Under the pieces are notes generated by a model, which saw nothing but the letters and a program-made list of their open reading frames with translations, made no database searches and had not been told where the DNA came from. From Zygnema cylindricum (lineage: Eukaryota; Streptophyta; Zygnematophyceae; Zygnematales; Zygnemataceae), in the NCBI GenBank assembly GCA_037447655.1, contig JBBHKE010000999.1, forward strand, positions 1 through 24,026: a stretch of DNA of 24,026 nt. The letters are read 5' to 3'. Below are positions 2,238-24,026 of this stretch, piece after piece. The number at the start of each line of letters is the position of its first letter. The stretch's first letter is position 1. The position numbers and the translations under genes are program-made.

Positions 2238-3245
2238 TACACCGAATATCGTTATTAGCGTGAATGTTTTTTTGCCACTTAGGGTGCGTCTCCATGTACG
2301 TGATACTTAGGAGAATTACTTTGTTTTTCAGCGCAGATTCAGCGGACCCGGATTTCACGTGTACATATGTGTAACAAATGAAATTGTTACTTAAGGGTGT
2401 GACAATTGTATGCGTTGACAATACCCGTGACGGTTGTCAACGTCTACAATTTGTGATGACGCACCCGGTTGTTCAAAAATTGGCAATGACGTCGCGTTAT
2501 TTTATGTGACATTTCTAGACATTTACCTTTTCAACCCTTTGTCCATGGATGTTGTCCATGGCTGACACTACCTTCTCTGTACGGTTGCCTTTTTGGCAAT
2601 TTCCACGAAACTTTGAATATCTCTTCTTATTTGAGAAACCTATTTCATATTTAATATAATCACCATAAAGTTAAGTTTTCTTTTGAACTCCTAGTGGGTG
2701 AATTGATTTTTCCATTCTTGTGTAAAGAATTATAGATAACAAAGAAAAGCGAATAAAAATAATATTAATAGTCATAATAAAATTCCGCCTTTGTCCGGGT
2801 TAAGAAACATAGCAATGATAATTGTGGGTTTTCATTTTTTTAAGGCAAAAAAAAAAATCTCCAGCTTCCCACTGGTCAGCGTAAAGCCGCCTGGTGGATG
2901 GATGAGGAATAGTGAAGTTTGTAGAAGAGAATGCGAGGCTACGTGAGAGAGGTGGCGCGTGCAAGTTACTGGGGCGCCCTCAGAGATTTCTCACGTTTTC
3001 GTGAAATGGCATCGTAATTTTCAGATCCTTGGAATGAAAAAAATCATACTCAACGAAAAGCGACAAAACAAAACAAATTGTGTACTTTGACGGACGCAAA
3101 CGGACAAAACATAACGAATAGTGTACCTTTTGTCCGTGGCTTAAATTCGTTTGAAATTTTATAATTTTTTTTGCACGTGCGAATACGTGTTCCTATTAGT
3201 TTTTCAAAAATACTTTGTTTTAAAACACATCGTCCCTGTGTTTTA

Positions 3246-4468
3246 GGGTACGTCCCCATGTATTAAAGTATCTACTTTTCTCTGTCTTTTTGCCCTAAAA
3301 TTCAGGGTACTTTGAAAAAAAATTAGCCGTACGAGAAAATCATTTTTACCAAAGTAGAGTGAACGTCAATTCATACTTTGGATGTACCTTAAGTTTCAAC
3401 CGTACAAAAAAATAGAAAAAAAGAGAAGTACATTTTGCGTCATCGTCAAATTTAGGATGTACTACATGTTATTCGACCCCGACCCACGCCAAAAAACGTC
3501 ATCTTCAAACTTTTCTTTAAGGGTCCCTCCCCATGTAATCGGTACTTTGATAAAGTATTTTGGACTGTAGTGAAGATTCGCCGTACTACTTTGAAGAGCG
3601 TCCCCATGTGCGAAAATGAAATCTGAACTTTGACATGTGACGGTTGTATACATGGGTATAACTTATGACGATTGAAGACAACTACGAAACTTCCGACGAT
3701 TGGTGACGCCAACAAAAACAATGACAGTTGTAGACGTCTATATTTTTGTGAAGGTGCAGACGTTTAGGGTTTGGTGACATTGTGACGTCACGCTCACTTG
3801 TGACAACGTCGACGTCACGGATTCAAGAACTTTCCGCCATGGTTTCCCGATTTCGCTTTTTCTACTTTTCTCACTCGACCTGCCATTAAAAAAAACCCTA
3901 AAAATTGTCAAAGATAATAATTTTTAAATATCTTTCATTTTATATCAATATTGTCGTGTCTCATTATAGAAAGTGTGAGATACAAGCGTTAGTGTGGGAG
4001 TGAGAGAGAAGAAGCGACGACGACAAAAAATTATACAAAGGACCCATGAATGCAAGTGGAAGTCCGAGACCCCTCCAAATTTCTTCCGTACATAGCGCGT
4101 GCCGGGCACGGAGAAAAATAGAGAGGACTCTCCCTCGTCCAAAAATTTTACAAATCGTGTGGCGCGTGCGTGGTTTGTTTTTCATTCGCTGTTTGGGCGG
4201 TAGTTAAACTAAAATCACCCCCTCGAGGTGATTTTGGATGAAGTTTTTTTTTGGGCTGGATTCTCTTGCTCGGGGGTCGAAAAGGGGAAAACGCCAAAAT
4301 GCGTTCACATGACGACAAACACGCCGTACATCCAAAGTATGAATTGACGTTCACTCTACTTTGGTAAAAATGATTTTCTCGTACGGCTAAAGTTTTTGTC
4401 AAAGTTCCCTGATTTTTAGGGCAAAAAGACAGAGAATAGTAGATACTTTATTACATGGGGATTTACCC
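3246..4468. mobile_element. Inner family B element with long inverted ends
   Basis: Bases 3246-3390 are an inverted copy of about 4322-4468. Both carry the end GGGTA..TCCCCATGTA, then AAAGTATCTACT, and a shared segment ending in a sequence like ACTTTGGATGTAC. TTA lies on both sides (3243-3245 and 4469-4471). This gives terminal inverted repeats of about 145 bp. The segment 3522-4468 is also a copy of the 946-bp MITE at 19350-20295. Either one element has captured extra sequence at 3391-3521, or a fragment in inverse orientation lies beside a complete copy. Confidence 0.65.
3522..4468. mobile_element. Copy of the 946-bp family B MITE
   Basis: This segment aligns along its length with 19350-20295. 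Shared blocks include the left end (GGGT.C.TCCCCATGTAATCGG), a GTGACATTGTGACGTCACGC block, the ATCACCCCCTCGAGGTGATT hairpin near 4213-4236 (partner near 20039-20060) and the right end. Lengths are nearly the same (947 and 946 bp). The left flank is TAA and the right flank TTA, which do not match, so the target duplication is not secure for this copy. The minus-strand open frames inside show no recognisable domain. Confidence 0.75.
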
Positions 4469-12911: not shown

Positions 12912-14173
12912 TCTTTTTTCTTTTCGGAAGCAGTTTAGTATCGAGCAGCTGAAGCTGCAACATAGCCTTTGATAGGTTCTATGATCGTGACCACAACAAT
13001 GTATTTATTTTGACAGTGGACTGTTGTGGTGTAGAGAAGAAAATGATAATTAGTTTTGACAGTCCCCAAATCTTGTATAGGTTGTCGTAGTGTTTCTCCA
13101 CACAATCAACCGATCGACTTTTTGTCTTTTAGGTTGATGGATTGGTAAGGGCCGTGTGTCATGTTTTGTATAAGACAAATTGTTTACAACTTTCCAATTA
13201 CAGGTTTTTTTTTTTTTTCTTTTTTTTTTTTTCGCCTTTTTTTTTTCGTTTTTTTTTTTTTTTTTCGATTCATGGACTCGAATGGATTTTTTCAAAGGAA
13301 TTCCTATCATGTATTAGTAGGTGATTTTGTTCACAAAAATATGACAAAAGTGTTCGGGGATTTTTTTGTATAATACGGACAAAGAAACTGTAATTTTGGG
13401 AAGAAATATGGGCAGTTATAAGTGGAAACTACAGAAGAAACGAAAGGAAAAAATGAAACTGAAAAAAAAAACTGAACTCGGGAGGACGGAAACTAAAAAA
13501 AAAAAGTTTAAAAATAAAATTGAATGACAATTCCTGCAACGAGGTTACAGGTATTTAAATTCTTACGGAAACCTGTGACTGAAAAATCTCAGATACACTT
13601 GTTATTGCTAATAACACAACATGTAAAACCTGCCAAGCCACGATAAAATACACGATCCTTATGCGACTTTATATTTTTTTGCGTAACTTGTTGAATTTTT
13701 ATGCAACTTTATAAATAGGACGACAAAATTTTAAAAAGAAGAAAAGTGGTGAATGAAGGAATCCATGAATTGCCTGCTTCTTGAAGAGAATGAGGTGGTG
13801 TATACTGCCTCTCTTGTTCATTTTTATGTAATAAGCTTTGTTAAAAATATGGTAAAATCAGAGAAACAATCCGAATATACGGAAACAAAAAATTAAAGGA
13901 TGAAGGCCAATCGAGAAGGGGAATAGTCACAAAAATCCGGAGAGTGTGAACTCAATATCAAGTATCAACATCTTGCACGGCATGCATATAAGAAGTAAAA
14001 ATAGTACCGGAGGATAGATTCATTGCTTGTCCCTTTCTTCAATAGCCTTATACCCGATATTTCCAACCGAACTCCTACCATTACAAGAAAAGGTAGGTTG
14101 TCAAAATAACACATCTATATTACCGTATGAGTTAAACGACTTAATTTATTCTAAAACTATTCTCACTTCATAA
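12912..14173. other. Intergenic stretch with homopolymer tracts
   Basis: No gene was recognised. Long T-rich runs occupy about 13204-13266 and A-rich runs lie near 13440-13510. Translations of the T-run are phenylalanine homopolymers and are not treated as genes. The remainder shows no domain, tRNA cloverleaf or transposon ends that I could identify. Confidence 0.45.
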
Positions 14174-14216
14174 CATAGTTCATATGTGTGAAAACAATTA
14201 ACAACACTATTTATGG
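14174..14216 (-). repeat. Dispersed repeat end shared with the right part of the window
   Basis: CATAGTTCATATGTGTGAAA and the sequence after it, through CACTATTTATGG, match the reverse complement of about 23606-23656 with only a few differences. The first half also matches the direct sequence at 23504. It looks like one end of a dispersed element whose fuller copy is at 23504-23652. No partner end was found next to this copy. Confidence 0.6.
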
Positions 14217-14775
14217 TGTCCCCCATATTGTGCGCATATTGTATGTTACATTACGTATTAACATGGAGTAACAACGTAGGAGGTTCTTGACTTGTTTCTA
14301 GTGTACTTACATAATTGTCAATCTAACATGTACAAACCAGAAATTGCGTGTTTACGTAATGCAAAAAAAATGTGTTATATCAATTTTTCTTAATCCCCCT
14401 TTTTGCTCCACGTATGCCCAATAGTGTGATGTAGGGTAATTACATGACCCTAAATTAATGAAAATACCGACCAATGTGATTTGTATTTCCACCACAATGT
14501 GATACGCATCATGACTCTCATGTAAGGTTAAAAACAAAAATTCTACCTTGGAATCAAAAGTTTAGAAATAGGTCAAATTTTGTCGGTGATTTGAGAAATT
14601 AGCATCTTATGAGGTGTAAACCATGACGTGAGTTTTAATTGGTTTACGACTTTCCAAACGATTGGAAAAGCGACATGAAAGCTTAGAAAGAAAGTTATTT
14701 TGGATGTAACCAAAGGAGTTAGAAGTCACACATCAAAGTTTTTTTCACACTATATATGTAAAAGATGTAAATGTT
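14217..14775. other. Intergenic stretch, nothing recognised
   Basis: Non-coding, AT-rich sequence. The minus-strand open frame 14352-14537 shows no domain. No repeat ends or RNA gene signatures were identified. Confidence 0.4.
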
Positions 14776-16719: not shown

Positions 16720-16780
<61 letters not shown>

Positions 16781-16797
16781 TATGTATATATATATAT
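16720..16797. repeat. AT dinucleotide microsatellite
   Basis: A nearly pure (AT)n run of about 75 bp is interrupted only by ACATATATATGTATA. It lies inside the palindromic element. The isoleucine-tyrosine repeat open frames on both strands are translations of this run. Confidence 0.9.
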
Positions 16798-19259: not shown

Positions 19260-20398
19260 GCGTCGCAAATTTGACACGGTAGTAACACTATTCATTTCAC
19301 AAATATTAGGGAACGGGACAAAGCGTCGCAAATCTGACACGGTAGTAAGGGTACGTCCCCATGTAATCGGTACTTTGATAAAATATTTTGGACTGTAGTG
19401 AAGATTCCCCATACTACTTTGAAGAGCGTCCCAATGTGCGAAAATGAAATCGGAACTTTGACATGTGACAGCTGTAGACGTAGGCATAACTTGTGACTAT
19501 TTAAGCCGACTACGAAACTTCAGACGATTGGTGACGCCAACAAAAACAGCGACAGTGGTAGACGTCTAGATTTTTGTGAATTTGTAGATGTTTAGGGTTT
19601 GGTGACATTGTGACGTCACGCTCACTTGTGACATCGTCGACGTCACTGATTCAAGAACTTTACGCCATGGTTTCTCGATTTCGTTTTTCTACTTTTCTCA
19701 TTCGAATTGCCATTAAAAAAAAACCAAAAAATTGTCAAAAGAAATATTTTTCAAAGATCTTTCATTTTATATCAATACTGTCGTGTCTCGTTCTAAAAAC
19801 TATGAGATAAAAGTGATAGTGTGAGAGGGAGAAGGGAGAGGCGACGACGACGAAAAATCATCCAAAGGACCCATGAATGAAAGTGGAGGTCCGAGACCTC
19901 TGCAAATTTTTTTCTGTACATGCGCGTGACGGCCACGGAGAAAAATAGCGAGGACTCTCCCCATTACAAAAAAAATCGCTCTCGTGTGGCGCGTGCGTAG
20001 GTCGTTTTTCATTCGATGTTTGGGCGGTACTTTAACTACAATCACCCCCTCGAGGTGATTTTGGATGAAGTTTTTTCTTGTGCTGGCTTCTCTTGCTCGG
20101 GGGTCGAAAAGGGGGAAACGCCAAAATGCGTTCACATGACGACAAACGCGCCGTACATCCTAAGTATGAATTGACGTTCACTGTACTTTTGTGAACATGA
20201 TTTTATAGTACGGCTAAAGTTTTTGTCAAAGTTCTCTGAATTTTAGGGCAAAAAGACAGAGAAAAGTAGATACTTTAACACATGGGGACGTACCCTAACA
20301 CTATTCATTTCGCAAATCTTAGGGAACGCGACAAAGCGTCGCAAATCTGACACGTTAGTAACACTATTCATTTCGCAAATCTTAGGGAACGCGACAAA
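19260..20398. repeat. 64-bp tandem repeat inside the hAT-like element, three units
   Basis: Units start with GCGTCGCAAATCTGACACGG at 19260, 19324 and 20336 and continue through GTAACACTATTCATTTC and TTAGGGAACG.GACAAA. The second unit is cut by the MITE at 19350-20295 with a duplicated TAA. The first and third units therefore serve as intact empty sites. Confidence 0.85.
19350..20295. mobile_element. 946-bp PIF/Harbinger-like MITE (family B)
   Basis: Perfect terminal inverted repeats GGGTACGTCCCCATGT are present on both ends, with TAA on both sides (19347-19349 and 20296-20298). The neighbouring tandem unit reads GTAGTAACACTATTC without interruption, which proves the insertion site and the 3-bp duplication. 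It is a full-length relative of 3522-4468. No transposase is present, and the minus-strand open frame 19800-20135 shows no domain. Confidence 0.88.
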
Positions 20399-20641
20399 TC
20401 GTAATTATTGGCTTATTCATACCTTGTACATTAATTAATTTTGTACTTTTTCGGTTATGGGCGGGCACGGTTAGTCGCGAGAAATCGAGTTTCGGTTAAC
20501 TTTTATTTTCGTAAATGGCGGTCGGTTAACGGTTAACAATTTTGGAGCGTGACATAACCCGGTCGGGCGTCGGTTATTCAGATTTTGAAAAAAAAAACGG
20601 TCGGTTTCGGTTATGTAAAATTTTGACTTTTGCGACCTCTG

Positions 20642-20804: not shown

Positions 20805-22996
20805 ATGGACGATGGTGATTGGTCGGACAGAGCGCCGCGGATAGTCGGAAAGTGTCCGGATATGTGTCCCGGTGAGTTCCTTATATTATATCATATAAAT
20901 GAAAGAGAGGGAAAGAGGGAGAGAGGGAGAGGGAGAGGGAGAGGGAGAGGGAGAGGGAGAGGGAGAGGGAGAGGGAGAGGGAGGAGGAGGGGGAGGGGGG
21001 AGGGGGAGGGAGAGGGTGAGGGGTAGGGGTAGGGATATACAAACAAAGATGTTTGAATAAAAATATATCTAGCTAGAAAGTAATTTAGCGATGGATTTTG
21101 TAGCTCTCTGCTAGTCATTTTTTTAAACAGTGTAATTAACAGTGTTTTATCATTTTAGGTCTATTTTTTTTTTGACCTAATTGGAATTTTTAACCTAATC
21201 CACGTAAGTTGAGGATAAGATTTTGAATTTTTCCTTCTGTAATATTATAAGTCCTAGTCTGCTTATTTGACCGTTGTAATTGAGATTTGAAGAATTATTT
21301 CAAATAAAAATATGGTTTTTGTGGAGATCTATGTTTTCAACTCAATACACTTCTCGTCGCTATTCGAACTAATAATTGTTAATTTTACTGCATGTTTTGT
21401 TTACTCAAAATCATAAATTGGTGTTGATAGCTATTTAGTCAAGTGGCCCATAATGGCCACCTGGCAAAGCGTAATTTAGTGTAGATATAATTAAATCCTC
21501 CTTAATGCTAATAGTACACCAACTCTAAGAGAAAATGTAGTATAGTTAGTACGAAATCCGCTTTAACATAAATTAGTGTGGTATATTTAACTTAGTGTGG
21601 TAAATACTGAATCCTCTTTAATGCTAATTATTCACTAACGTTAATTATTCTAGAACATAATTTAGTGTCGTTAAAGCCAAATCCGCTTAAACATTCATTA
21701 TTCACTAACTCTAATAACGTTGTTAGGTATGGCTCTGTGTATGTGACCATCGGAAATTAGAGTGAATAATCTCTTCTAGGAAAACCATGTTTTTGTTGAG
21801 ATGTTAAGTTCTTAACTTAGGTCCTTAGCGCTCTTTCCTGTCCCTCTCCCTCTCCCCCTCCTTCCTCCTCTCCTCTCCGTCTTCTCGTCTCTCTCTCTCT
21901 TCTCCTTTCCCCTTTCTCTATCCCCTCCCCCTCCCCCTCTTCCTCCTCTTCCTCTTCCTCCTTCTCCACTCCCTCACCCTCACCCTCCCCCTTTCCCTTT
22001 ATTAGAATATAGCATCTTTAAATCCTAATTTGAGGGGAATTCCAGTCAGACGTAGCCCCAAATTGAGTTCGAGAAAAATCCCAGTTAGAAGGAAATCACA
22101 ATTAGAGGGAAATCCCATTTAGAGGGAAAACCCAGTTAGAGAGTTGGAGGGAAATGACAAATCGCGGTTAGTGGGAAATCGCATTCACAGAGGAATCTTA
22201 TTATAGGAAAATCCGGGCTAAACTGAAACCAAATGCGTAGGGAAATCTCAGTTAAAGAGAACTGCCAGGTTATTCTGTCCATCAAGCCAAAGTTTCAAGG
22301 TATACATAATTGAACAATTTATTAAATGTACCATTTACTGCATCCCATTCTTGCACAACTGCATCCCAAAAAAAAATTGTTGATCCGGTTCTTTTAGTCA
22401 CTTTTTAAAATAGTAAAATACACACCATTTATCGTTTCTTAACAGACAGTTTTTGTGGGCTTTTCATTGTTGTAAAGAGGCTTAACTTTTTGTCCGGAAA
22501 TTTGGGAAAATTTGGAATGGTCAGTCTCGGAACGGGAACTGAGGGAACGATTGCAAGATATTTCCGTTTTTGAGCGATTACCCGGCTCTAGACCTTATAG
22601 AACCTCCAAAGAATTGGCTGTGAAAAAGGTAATTTATGTTTCACTATTTGATAAGGCTTTTGTCCTGCTTTGCTCTTTCCAATTATCCGTTGCAATATGT
22701 TTAATAATCAGTCGATCTTCTTCTAATGGATGAAGCAGTATTTAATATTCGGTTTACCTTTTTCCATAATGCAGTTTTCACGCACTATTTCAGGAAATTA
22801 CCTTCATTCTCAAGACGTGAGACCGATTTCCGTCTTACAACGAACTGTGAATCACCTTTTGACTGTTTTGGACAGTCCAAGAGTTACATTTGAGGAAATT
22901 TACTATTTCTTTTTTGATCGATCTCGATCTGTTCGTCAGGAACTTGCCATTCAACTTATCCATGGAAAAGCAGCCATTGATTTGTGCAAACCTATT
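20805..22996 (+). CDS. SAC3/GANP-domain protein, 5' part (three exons)
   Basis: The exons are 20805-20871, 22525-22628 and 22775-22996. Introns are GT-AG, and the first splits a valine codon (G plus TC). Together they give 131 residues; the gene continues beyond the window or past 22997. The start context GCCATGG is favourable and an in-frame TGA lies upstream at about 20749. The protein begins with a short acidic leader, then GKCPDMCPVSERELRERL, the classic start of the SAC3 domain, followed by VFERL, LAVKKFSRT, DVRPISVLQRTVNHLL and YFFFDRSRSVRQELAIQ. Family knowledge: SAC3/GANP proteins serve as scaffolds, best known in TREX-2 mRNA export at the nuclear pore; shorter members (SAC3D1 or plant SAC3-like types) have other or unclear roles. 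With only about 15 residues before the domain, this resembles the short class, but an upstream exon is possible. The next expected SAC3 block (of MVRFH type) was not found by 24026. Confidence 0.92.
20901..21034. repeat. Purine tract (GGGAGA)n in SAC3 intron 1
   Basis: An almost pure G/A run starts about 30 bp after the exon 1 donor (GTGAGT at 20872), with hexamer GAGGGA units, then GGAGG and finally GGGTAGGGGTAGGGA. The arginine-glycine open frame running through it from the exon 1 ATG is intron read-through. Confidence 0.9.
21470..21725. repeat. Degenerate AT-rich direct repeats in SAC3 intron 1
   Basis: Two phrases alternate: TAATTTAGTGT.G (about 21471, 21572, 21659) and AATCC.C.TTAA..CTAAT..T.CACTAAC (about 21495, 21611, 21689). 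They form a decayed tandem array with irregular spacing. No coding or structural role is visible. Confidence 0.5.
21832..21999. repeat. Pyrimidine tract in SAC3 intron 1
   Basis: This C/T-rich run of about 168 bp (CCCTCTCCC, CCTCCTCTTCC, CTCACCCTCACCCTCCCC) is complementary in character to the purine tract at 20901-21034, some 800 bp upstream in the same intron. It ends about 525 bp before the exon 2 acceptor. Confidence 0.9.
22031..22265. repeat. Degenerate tandem repeat of about 17 bp in SAC3 intron 1
   Basis: Units close to AGAGGGAAATCCCAGTT recur (for example AGAAGGAAATCACAATT, AGAGGGAAATCCCATTT, AGAGGGAAAACCCAGTT) and degrade toward the right. No coding potential is present. Confidence 0.7.
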
Positions 22997-23107
22997 GTAA
23001 GTTGTCCAGTTGAAAACCGCTTTTTTGTGTGACATTTTGTCTCTTTTCAGCTCGCTGTAGTGTGATTCTAATTATAGTGTTGCCAAAATTTATTGCACAC
23101 TTCGATG

Positions 23108-23423: not shown

Positions 23424-23665
23424 ATTGTCCCTTTCAAGTCCGTATTTTCTACATTACCTTTAACCTTTGAGAAAATGACATAGTTCACATGAAACTCATG
23501 AAATAGTTCATATGTGTGATAACAACTGGAATTGCTGTTTGTTGTCACTCTGGGCTATATACCCCTATTTTACCCAAAAATGGCGTGTATTCTGCGTATA
23601 ATATGTGGTAACCACATATAGTGTTTCCAATTGTTTTCGCACATCTGAACTATGTTCATGACCTC
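23424..23665 (+). repeat. Left arm of a perfect 242-nt mirror repeat
   Basis: Base i equals base 47450 minus i for every i from 23424 to 23665, checked block by block. The partner arm is thus the same strand read backwards, without complementing. This arm appears to be the native one: about 23606-23656 matches 14174-14216 as an ordinary reverse-complement repeat. The arm could extend left of 23424, because its partner is cut by the window end. Confidence 0.97.
23504..23652. repeat. MITE-like unit with 28-bp inverted ends, inside the left mirror arm
   Basis: The ends 23504-23531 (TAGTTCATATGTGTGATAAC and the next 8 bases) and 23625-23652 are reverse complements at 24 of 28 positions. An internal hairpin ATATGTGG, loop TAA, CCACATAT lies at 23601-23619. 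One end also occurs at 14174-14216. No clear target duplication was found. Confidence 0.6.
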
Positions 23666-23784
23666 TCTCAAGAAAAAATGTGCATCAAAATCAAAAAATG
23701 TGGATTCAAACCAGAATTTTTTGTTTTAATTTTAAAAAATGGGGATGAAAATAAAAAAAATTGGGGATGAAAAAAAAATAACGG
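23666..23784. other. 119-nt spacer between the mirror arms
   Basis: This A-rich spacer contains repeated AAAAAATGTG.AT and TGGGGATGAAAA phrases. It does not obey the mirror rule: pairs such as 23666/23784 and 23723/23727 differ. The exact symmetry therefore stops sharply at 23665 and 23785. Confidence 0.8.
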
Positions 23785-24026
23785 CTCCAGTACTTGTATC
23801 AAGTCTACACGCTTTTGTTAACCTTTGTGATATACACCAATGGTGTATAATATGCGTCTTATGTGCGGTAAAAACCCATTTTATCCCCATATATCGGGTC
23901 TCACTGTTGTTTGTCGTTAAGGTCAACAATAGTGTGTATACTTGATAAAGTACTCAAAGTACACTTGATACAGTAAAAGAGTTTCCAATTTCCATTACAT
24001 CTTTTATGCCTGAACTTTCCCTGTTA
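23785..24026 (+). repeat. Right arm of the mirror repeat, reversed but not complemented
   Basis: Read from 24026 back to 23785, this segment is identical to 23424-23665 over all 242 bases. Examples: CTTTTATGCC at 24001 is the reversal of CCGTATTTTC at 23440, and ACCTTTGTGA at 23821 is the reversal of AGTGTTTCCA at 23620. It reaches the last base of the window, so the true length is unknown. No SAC3 exon was found in it. Confidence 0.97.

Follow-up and report, generated by a model that had tools for sequence, protein, structure and literature searches.

Mirror repeats that form H-DNA are composed of homopurine-homopyrimidine sequence, as described in one report (PMC9171763). Sequences reversed without complementing also serve as man-made controls, according to two further reports (PMC11006607, PMC11099658), and these resemble the locus described below in being reversed but not complemented, with the difference that their reversal is declared and deliberate. 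A third point of comparison is a T7-like phage contig (IMGVR_UViG_3300013307_000032, hereafter L119), which carries two perfect 120-nt arms separated by a 24-nt spacer at its end (locus 1-264), and which looks like the product of an ordinary fold-back assembly artefact.

The DNA stretch analysed here in its entirety, referred to as the window, is 24,026 nt in length and has the layout of a fold-back at its right end, where two arms flank a spacer and the right arm finishes at the window’s final base (Table 1). A script check established that base i equals base 47450-i at all 242 positions when nucleotides 23424-23665 are compared with nucleotides 23785-24026. Thus, the right arm is identical to the left arm when the latter is reversed (242/242), although it shares no position with the reverse complement of the left arm (0/242), and agrees with the complement and with the left arm as written at only 68 and 64 of the 242 positions, respectively. 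The earlier note on this DNA had described a perfect 242-nt mirror, and a recheck of the arms for mismatches uncovered none; divergence between the arms is therefore zero, with an upper bound of about 1.2% at 95%. Because the right arm stops at the window’s final base, however, the length of 242 nt is a minimum should the source record run past position 24026. The spacer itself lacks mirror symmetry, given that 22 of its 59 self-mirror pairs match where 20.5 are expected, and therefore the inner edges of the arms are sharp, as had been proposed from the abrupt breaks on either side of this unsymmetrical segment.

Table 1. Features in and around the mirror repeat, with positions in the window.
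Feature	Position	Strand	Remarks
Another copy of the MITE-like element, partial (one end), ordinarily oriented	14168..14236	-	81% over 70 nt, E 2.7e-12
SAC3/GANP gene, 5' part	20805..22996	+	Coding pieces near 20805-20876, 22530-22628 and 22775-22996
Left mirror arm (242 nt), regarded as native	23424..23665	+	Exact mirror of 23785-24026; ordinary-orientation match to 14168-14236; k-mer scores lean the other way
MITE-like palindromic element in the left arm, about 166 nt	23496..23661	+	Terminal inverted repeats (about 37 nt), imperfect
Spacer, 119 nt, A-rich, without mirror symmetry	23666..23784	+	22/59 self-mirror matches
Imperfect 22-nt tandem repeat in the spacer	23734-23778		
Right arm, the left arm backwards and uncomplemented, to the final window base	23785..24026	.	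242/242 reversed, 0/242 reverse complement

The likeness between the window and the L119 contig lies in the two perfect arms, the short spacer and the position at the end of the contig or, here, of the window. The relationship between the arms is nevertheless the opposite in the two cases, since the L119 arm agrees with the reverse complement at 120 of 120 positions and with the plain reversal at none, whereas the window arm agrees with the plain reversal throughout and with the reverse complement nowhere. This latter result rules out an ordinary fold-back or inverted duplication. With H-DNA tracts the window shares mirror symmetry on a single strand, but its arms are exact over 242 nt, are separated by 119 nt rather than by a short loop, and are of mixed sequence: purines make up 43% of the left arm, in which purine or pyrimidine runs reach 8 nt at most. 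An H-DNA tract is ruled out on the basis of this mixed composition, which agrees with the earlier observation that the arms are unlike homopurine mirror repeats.

When simple repeats were removed by a dinucleotide entropy filter before the mirrors were ranked, the window’s second-longest exact mirror measured 19 nt. Comparison of the window with its own plain reversal, which had been suggested as a check, accordingly yielded no other mirror of comparable size. An order-2 model was used to simulate 60 windows, whose longest mirrors ranged from 13 to 23 nt, and an estimate that treats bases as independent places the expected number of exact 242-nt mirrors at approximately 10^-131. A chance origin is ruled out by these three results taken together. 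The control comprised 159 phage or prophage loci (2,676,064 bases; 157 loci from IMG/VR, a stretch of lambda and a stretch of T7), L119 with its reverse-complement fold-back being one of them. Only one of the 159 contained a non-simple mirror of at least 30 nt, a 41-nt self-mirror within a tandem repeat, and apart from this case the longest was 21 nt, although as a base rate this control is weak because the loci are not algal and 80 of them are lambda-type loci that are near-related (99-100% in terminase). The earlier note had left three choices, namely an artefact, an engineered control or an unknown process, and this framing is supported by the lack of a comparable mirror elsewhere in the window or in the control loci.

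The simple repeats of the window include an AT array of 39 copies (16720-16797), a GAGAGG/GAGGGG array (20915-21034) and a CT-rich array (21837-21998). The longest simple mirror, at 61 nt, derives from a GAGGGA array. No RNA family matched the window at gathering thresholds, and a scan of viral_contigs, which may omit records near the window’s own genome, returned no match to the exact 26-base pattern that spans the boundary between the left arm and the spacer.

These comparisons bear on the reading in which the mirror is a real genomic duplication, generated by some unknown process that copies a strand without complementing it in a snap-back geometry. The arrangement does have such a geometry, in that the text beyond the spacer retraces the left arm from its inner end to its outer end. 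Against this reading stand the zero divergence between the arms (below about 1.2% at 95%), the absence of further long, non-simple mirrors from the window, the 159 control loci with none over 21 nt except for the tandem-repeat case, and the coincidence of the right arm with the window end. To our knowledge, no enzyme or repair route produces an uncomplemented mirror duplication, and nothing that points to a biological origin was found in the analysis of the window. We therefore judge a genomic duplication to be extremely improbable.

Much of the left arm is occupied by a MITE-like element, and this provides a means of deciding which arm is native. The element exhibits the terminal inverted repeats typical of MITEs, albeit in imperfect form (86% over 37 nt, as an internal inverted match), and with regard to copy number it has one partial copy, comprising one end, at 14168-14236 within the window. 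A further match to this region (90% over 30 nt) represents the same stretch recovered through the palindromy of the element. Within the window, the left arm alone has an ordinarily oriented relative, whereas the right arm matches 14168-14236 only once the whole window is plainly reversed. On this evidence the left arm looks like ordinary, native DNA and the right arm like reversed text. The inverted-repeat partner that had been noted at 14174-14216 is thus real and slightly longer than first described, and the proposal that the left arm is the original is supported by this alignment, though one k-mer test leaned against it.

Models of k-mer usage, for which the remainder of the window served as training data, give a less uniform picture. 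The two arms score about equally at order 2 and the left arm is ahead by 2 bits at order 3, but the right arm scores higher at orders 4 and 5, reaching -453.4 bits at order 5 compared with -483.4 bits for the left arm, where the scatter of the scores is large (standard deviation 15.5 bits). At order 5 the breakdown by stretch is negative in 9 cases out of 12, with -14.9 bits coming from a single 20-nt stretch. A 6-mer test likewise identifies the left arm as atypical for its own orientation, with 3 of 96 background tiles being equally extreme. We consider the homology to 14168-14236 to be stronger evidence than these contrary scores, and therefore the right arm is disfavoured as the original.

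A gene for a TBC Rab-GAP protein lies on the plus strand in several exons, with pieces extending from 6898 to about 12325. Among the best 120 of 814 matches, its closest relatives are found in streptophytes, and the identities, which are approximate because the exons of the query were joined by hand, are 93% to a Logan protein, 69% to a EukProt transcript, 62% to a EukProt protein whose style of name we take to be that of Spirogloea, 56% to Closterium and about 56-63% to named land plants. Judging from this one gene, the window appears to derive from the nuclear genome of a green alga among the streptophytes, which may be a zygnematophyte. Long repeats are common to the regions 3240-4440 and 19310-20400, with inverted copies inside; they include a 65-nt exact inverted repeat (3323-3387 and 4326-4390) and a 44-nt direct repeat (3762-3805 and 19590-19633). 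These two regions may represent copies of one transposable element.

Upstream of the mirror, a SAC3/GANP gene is represented by its 5' part, for which the edges of the pieces and the splice sites were set by eye. A piece from the window matches positions 35-114 of the 289 positions of the Pfam SAC3_GANP profile, and a relative, P0001, covers profile positions 1-114. A tblastn search with P0001 recovered nucleotides 22760-23002 (E 2.6e-19) and, weakly, nucleotides 20805-20876 (E 0.009), whereas the middle piece was read by eye and its frame has no Pfam match. Used as a pattern against viral_contigs, with the same possible omission of records near the window’s own genome, the SAC3 piece gave two matches, neither of them a relative. 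Fifteen plus-strand open frames of at least 25 amino acids start between 22997 and 24026, and none yielded a SAC3 match in Pfam, a search that shorter exons could escape; one of these frames matched DUF5819 at E 0.09, below the cut-off. Because the SAC3 pieces reach only profile position 114 of 289 and none of the later frames continues the match, the window seems to stop inside the gene. To judge from these coding pieces, the SAC3/GANP gene appears to have been broken off by the window end, as occurs in contigs or in cut windows.

Given these characteristics, we consider it probable that the mirror arose at a contig end as an artefact of data processing or assembly, in which a string was added in reversed but uncomplemented form. 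Known routes of DNA synthesis and rearrangement yield direct or reverse-complement copies, and we know of no polymerase that omits complementing. An exact reversal (242/242) that lacks divergence and has sharp edges, by contrast, is what a reversal made by software should look like. In the proposed mechanism, a program would take the 242 bases to the left of the 119-nt stretch in leftward order, from 23665 down to 23424, and the resulting string would then be written onto the right end, reversed without complementing. Two commonplace programming faults could have this outcome. In the first, a program growing a contig end or seed to the left, either one base at a time or by traceback, would also join its raw buffer, never turned around, to the right. 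In the second, a fold-back or opposite-strand join would make use of ‘reverse’ where ‘reverse complement’ was intended. We infer the involvement of a program as the agent, the termination of the source record at 24026 and the kind of fault. A program fault would explain why the mirror is exact, why its edges are sharp, why the spacer has no symmetry and why the repeat sits at the end.

A literature search that covered part of the matching literature found neither an assembler fault that writes reversed sequence nor a long mirror repeat that is not homopurine. The length of the spacer, 119 nt, is the same as a default k-mer step of the assembler MEGAHIT, and we attach little weight to this correspondence with a k-mer length, which is a coincidence recognized after the fact.

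The main rival to a processing or assembly artefact is a deliberate control, wherein someone would have reversed a real segment and placed it at the window end as a test or decoy. The exactness of the mirror and the precise coincidence of the arm with the window end are what such a design would produce, and plainly reversed sequences are known as man-made controls from the two reports cited at the outset (PMC11006607, PMC11099658). However, no mark of planting was found in the sequence, and the odd lengths of 242 and 119 nt, together with the apparent break in the middle of a gene, fit an assembly accident equally well. We regard deliberate placement as unlikely, though it carries appreciable weight.

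A sequencing artefact can also be envisioned, in which a nanopore read a strand for a second time in reverse, with this read coming to dominate the contig end. Strands have been read in both directions in research nanopore set-ups, and such bidirectional reading makes the geometry physically conceivable. Base-callers model directional k-mer currents, however, and therefore a backward signal should not yield the exact letter-by-letter reversal observed here, with identity at every one of the 242 positions. This makes an origin in a re-read strand very unlikely.

With an artefact of processing or assembly as the preferred reading, the observation has modest value for quality control. Screens for repeats usually seek direct and reverse-complement copies, and for this reason a plainly reversed tail can go unnoticed in public contigs. 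Searching the ends of contigs for exact mirrors would be cheap, and it could name the faulty program if the cases found share an assembler.

For biology, the alternative would require a cell to copy each base as itself, rather than as its partner, in a snap-back geometry, a form of copying that is not known today and to which we assign almost no credence. If true, it would contradict the principle that copying of nucleic acids proceeds by complementarity, and precisely because a biological reversal would do so, an artefact or a planted control is far likelier. The mirror is thus most likely of little biological interest, being an artefact or else a planted control.
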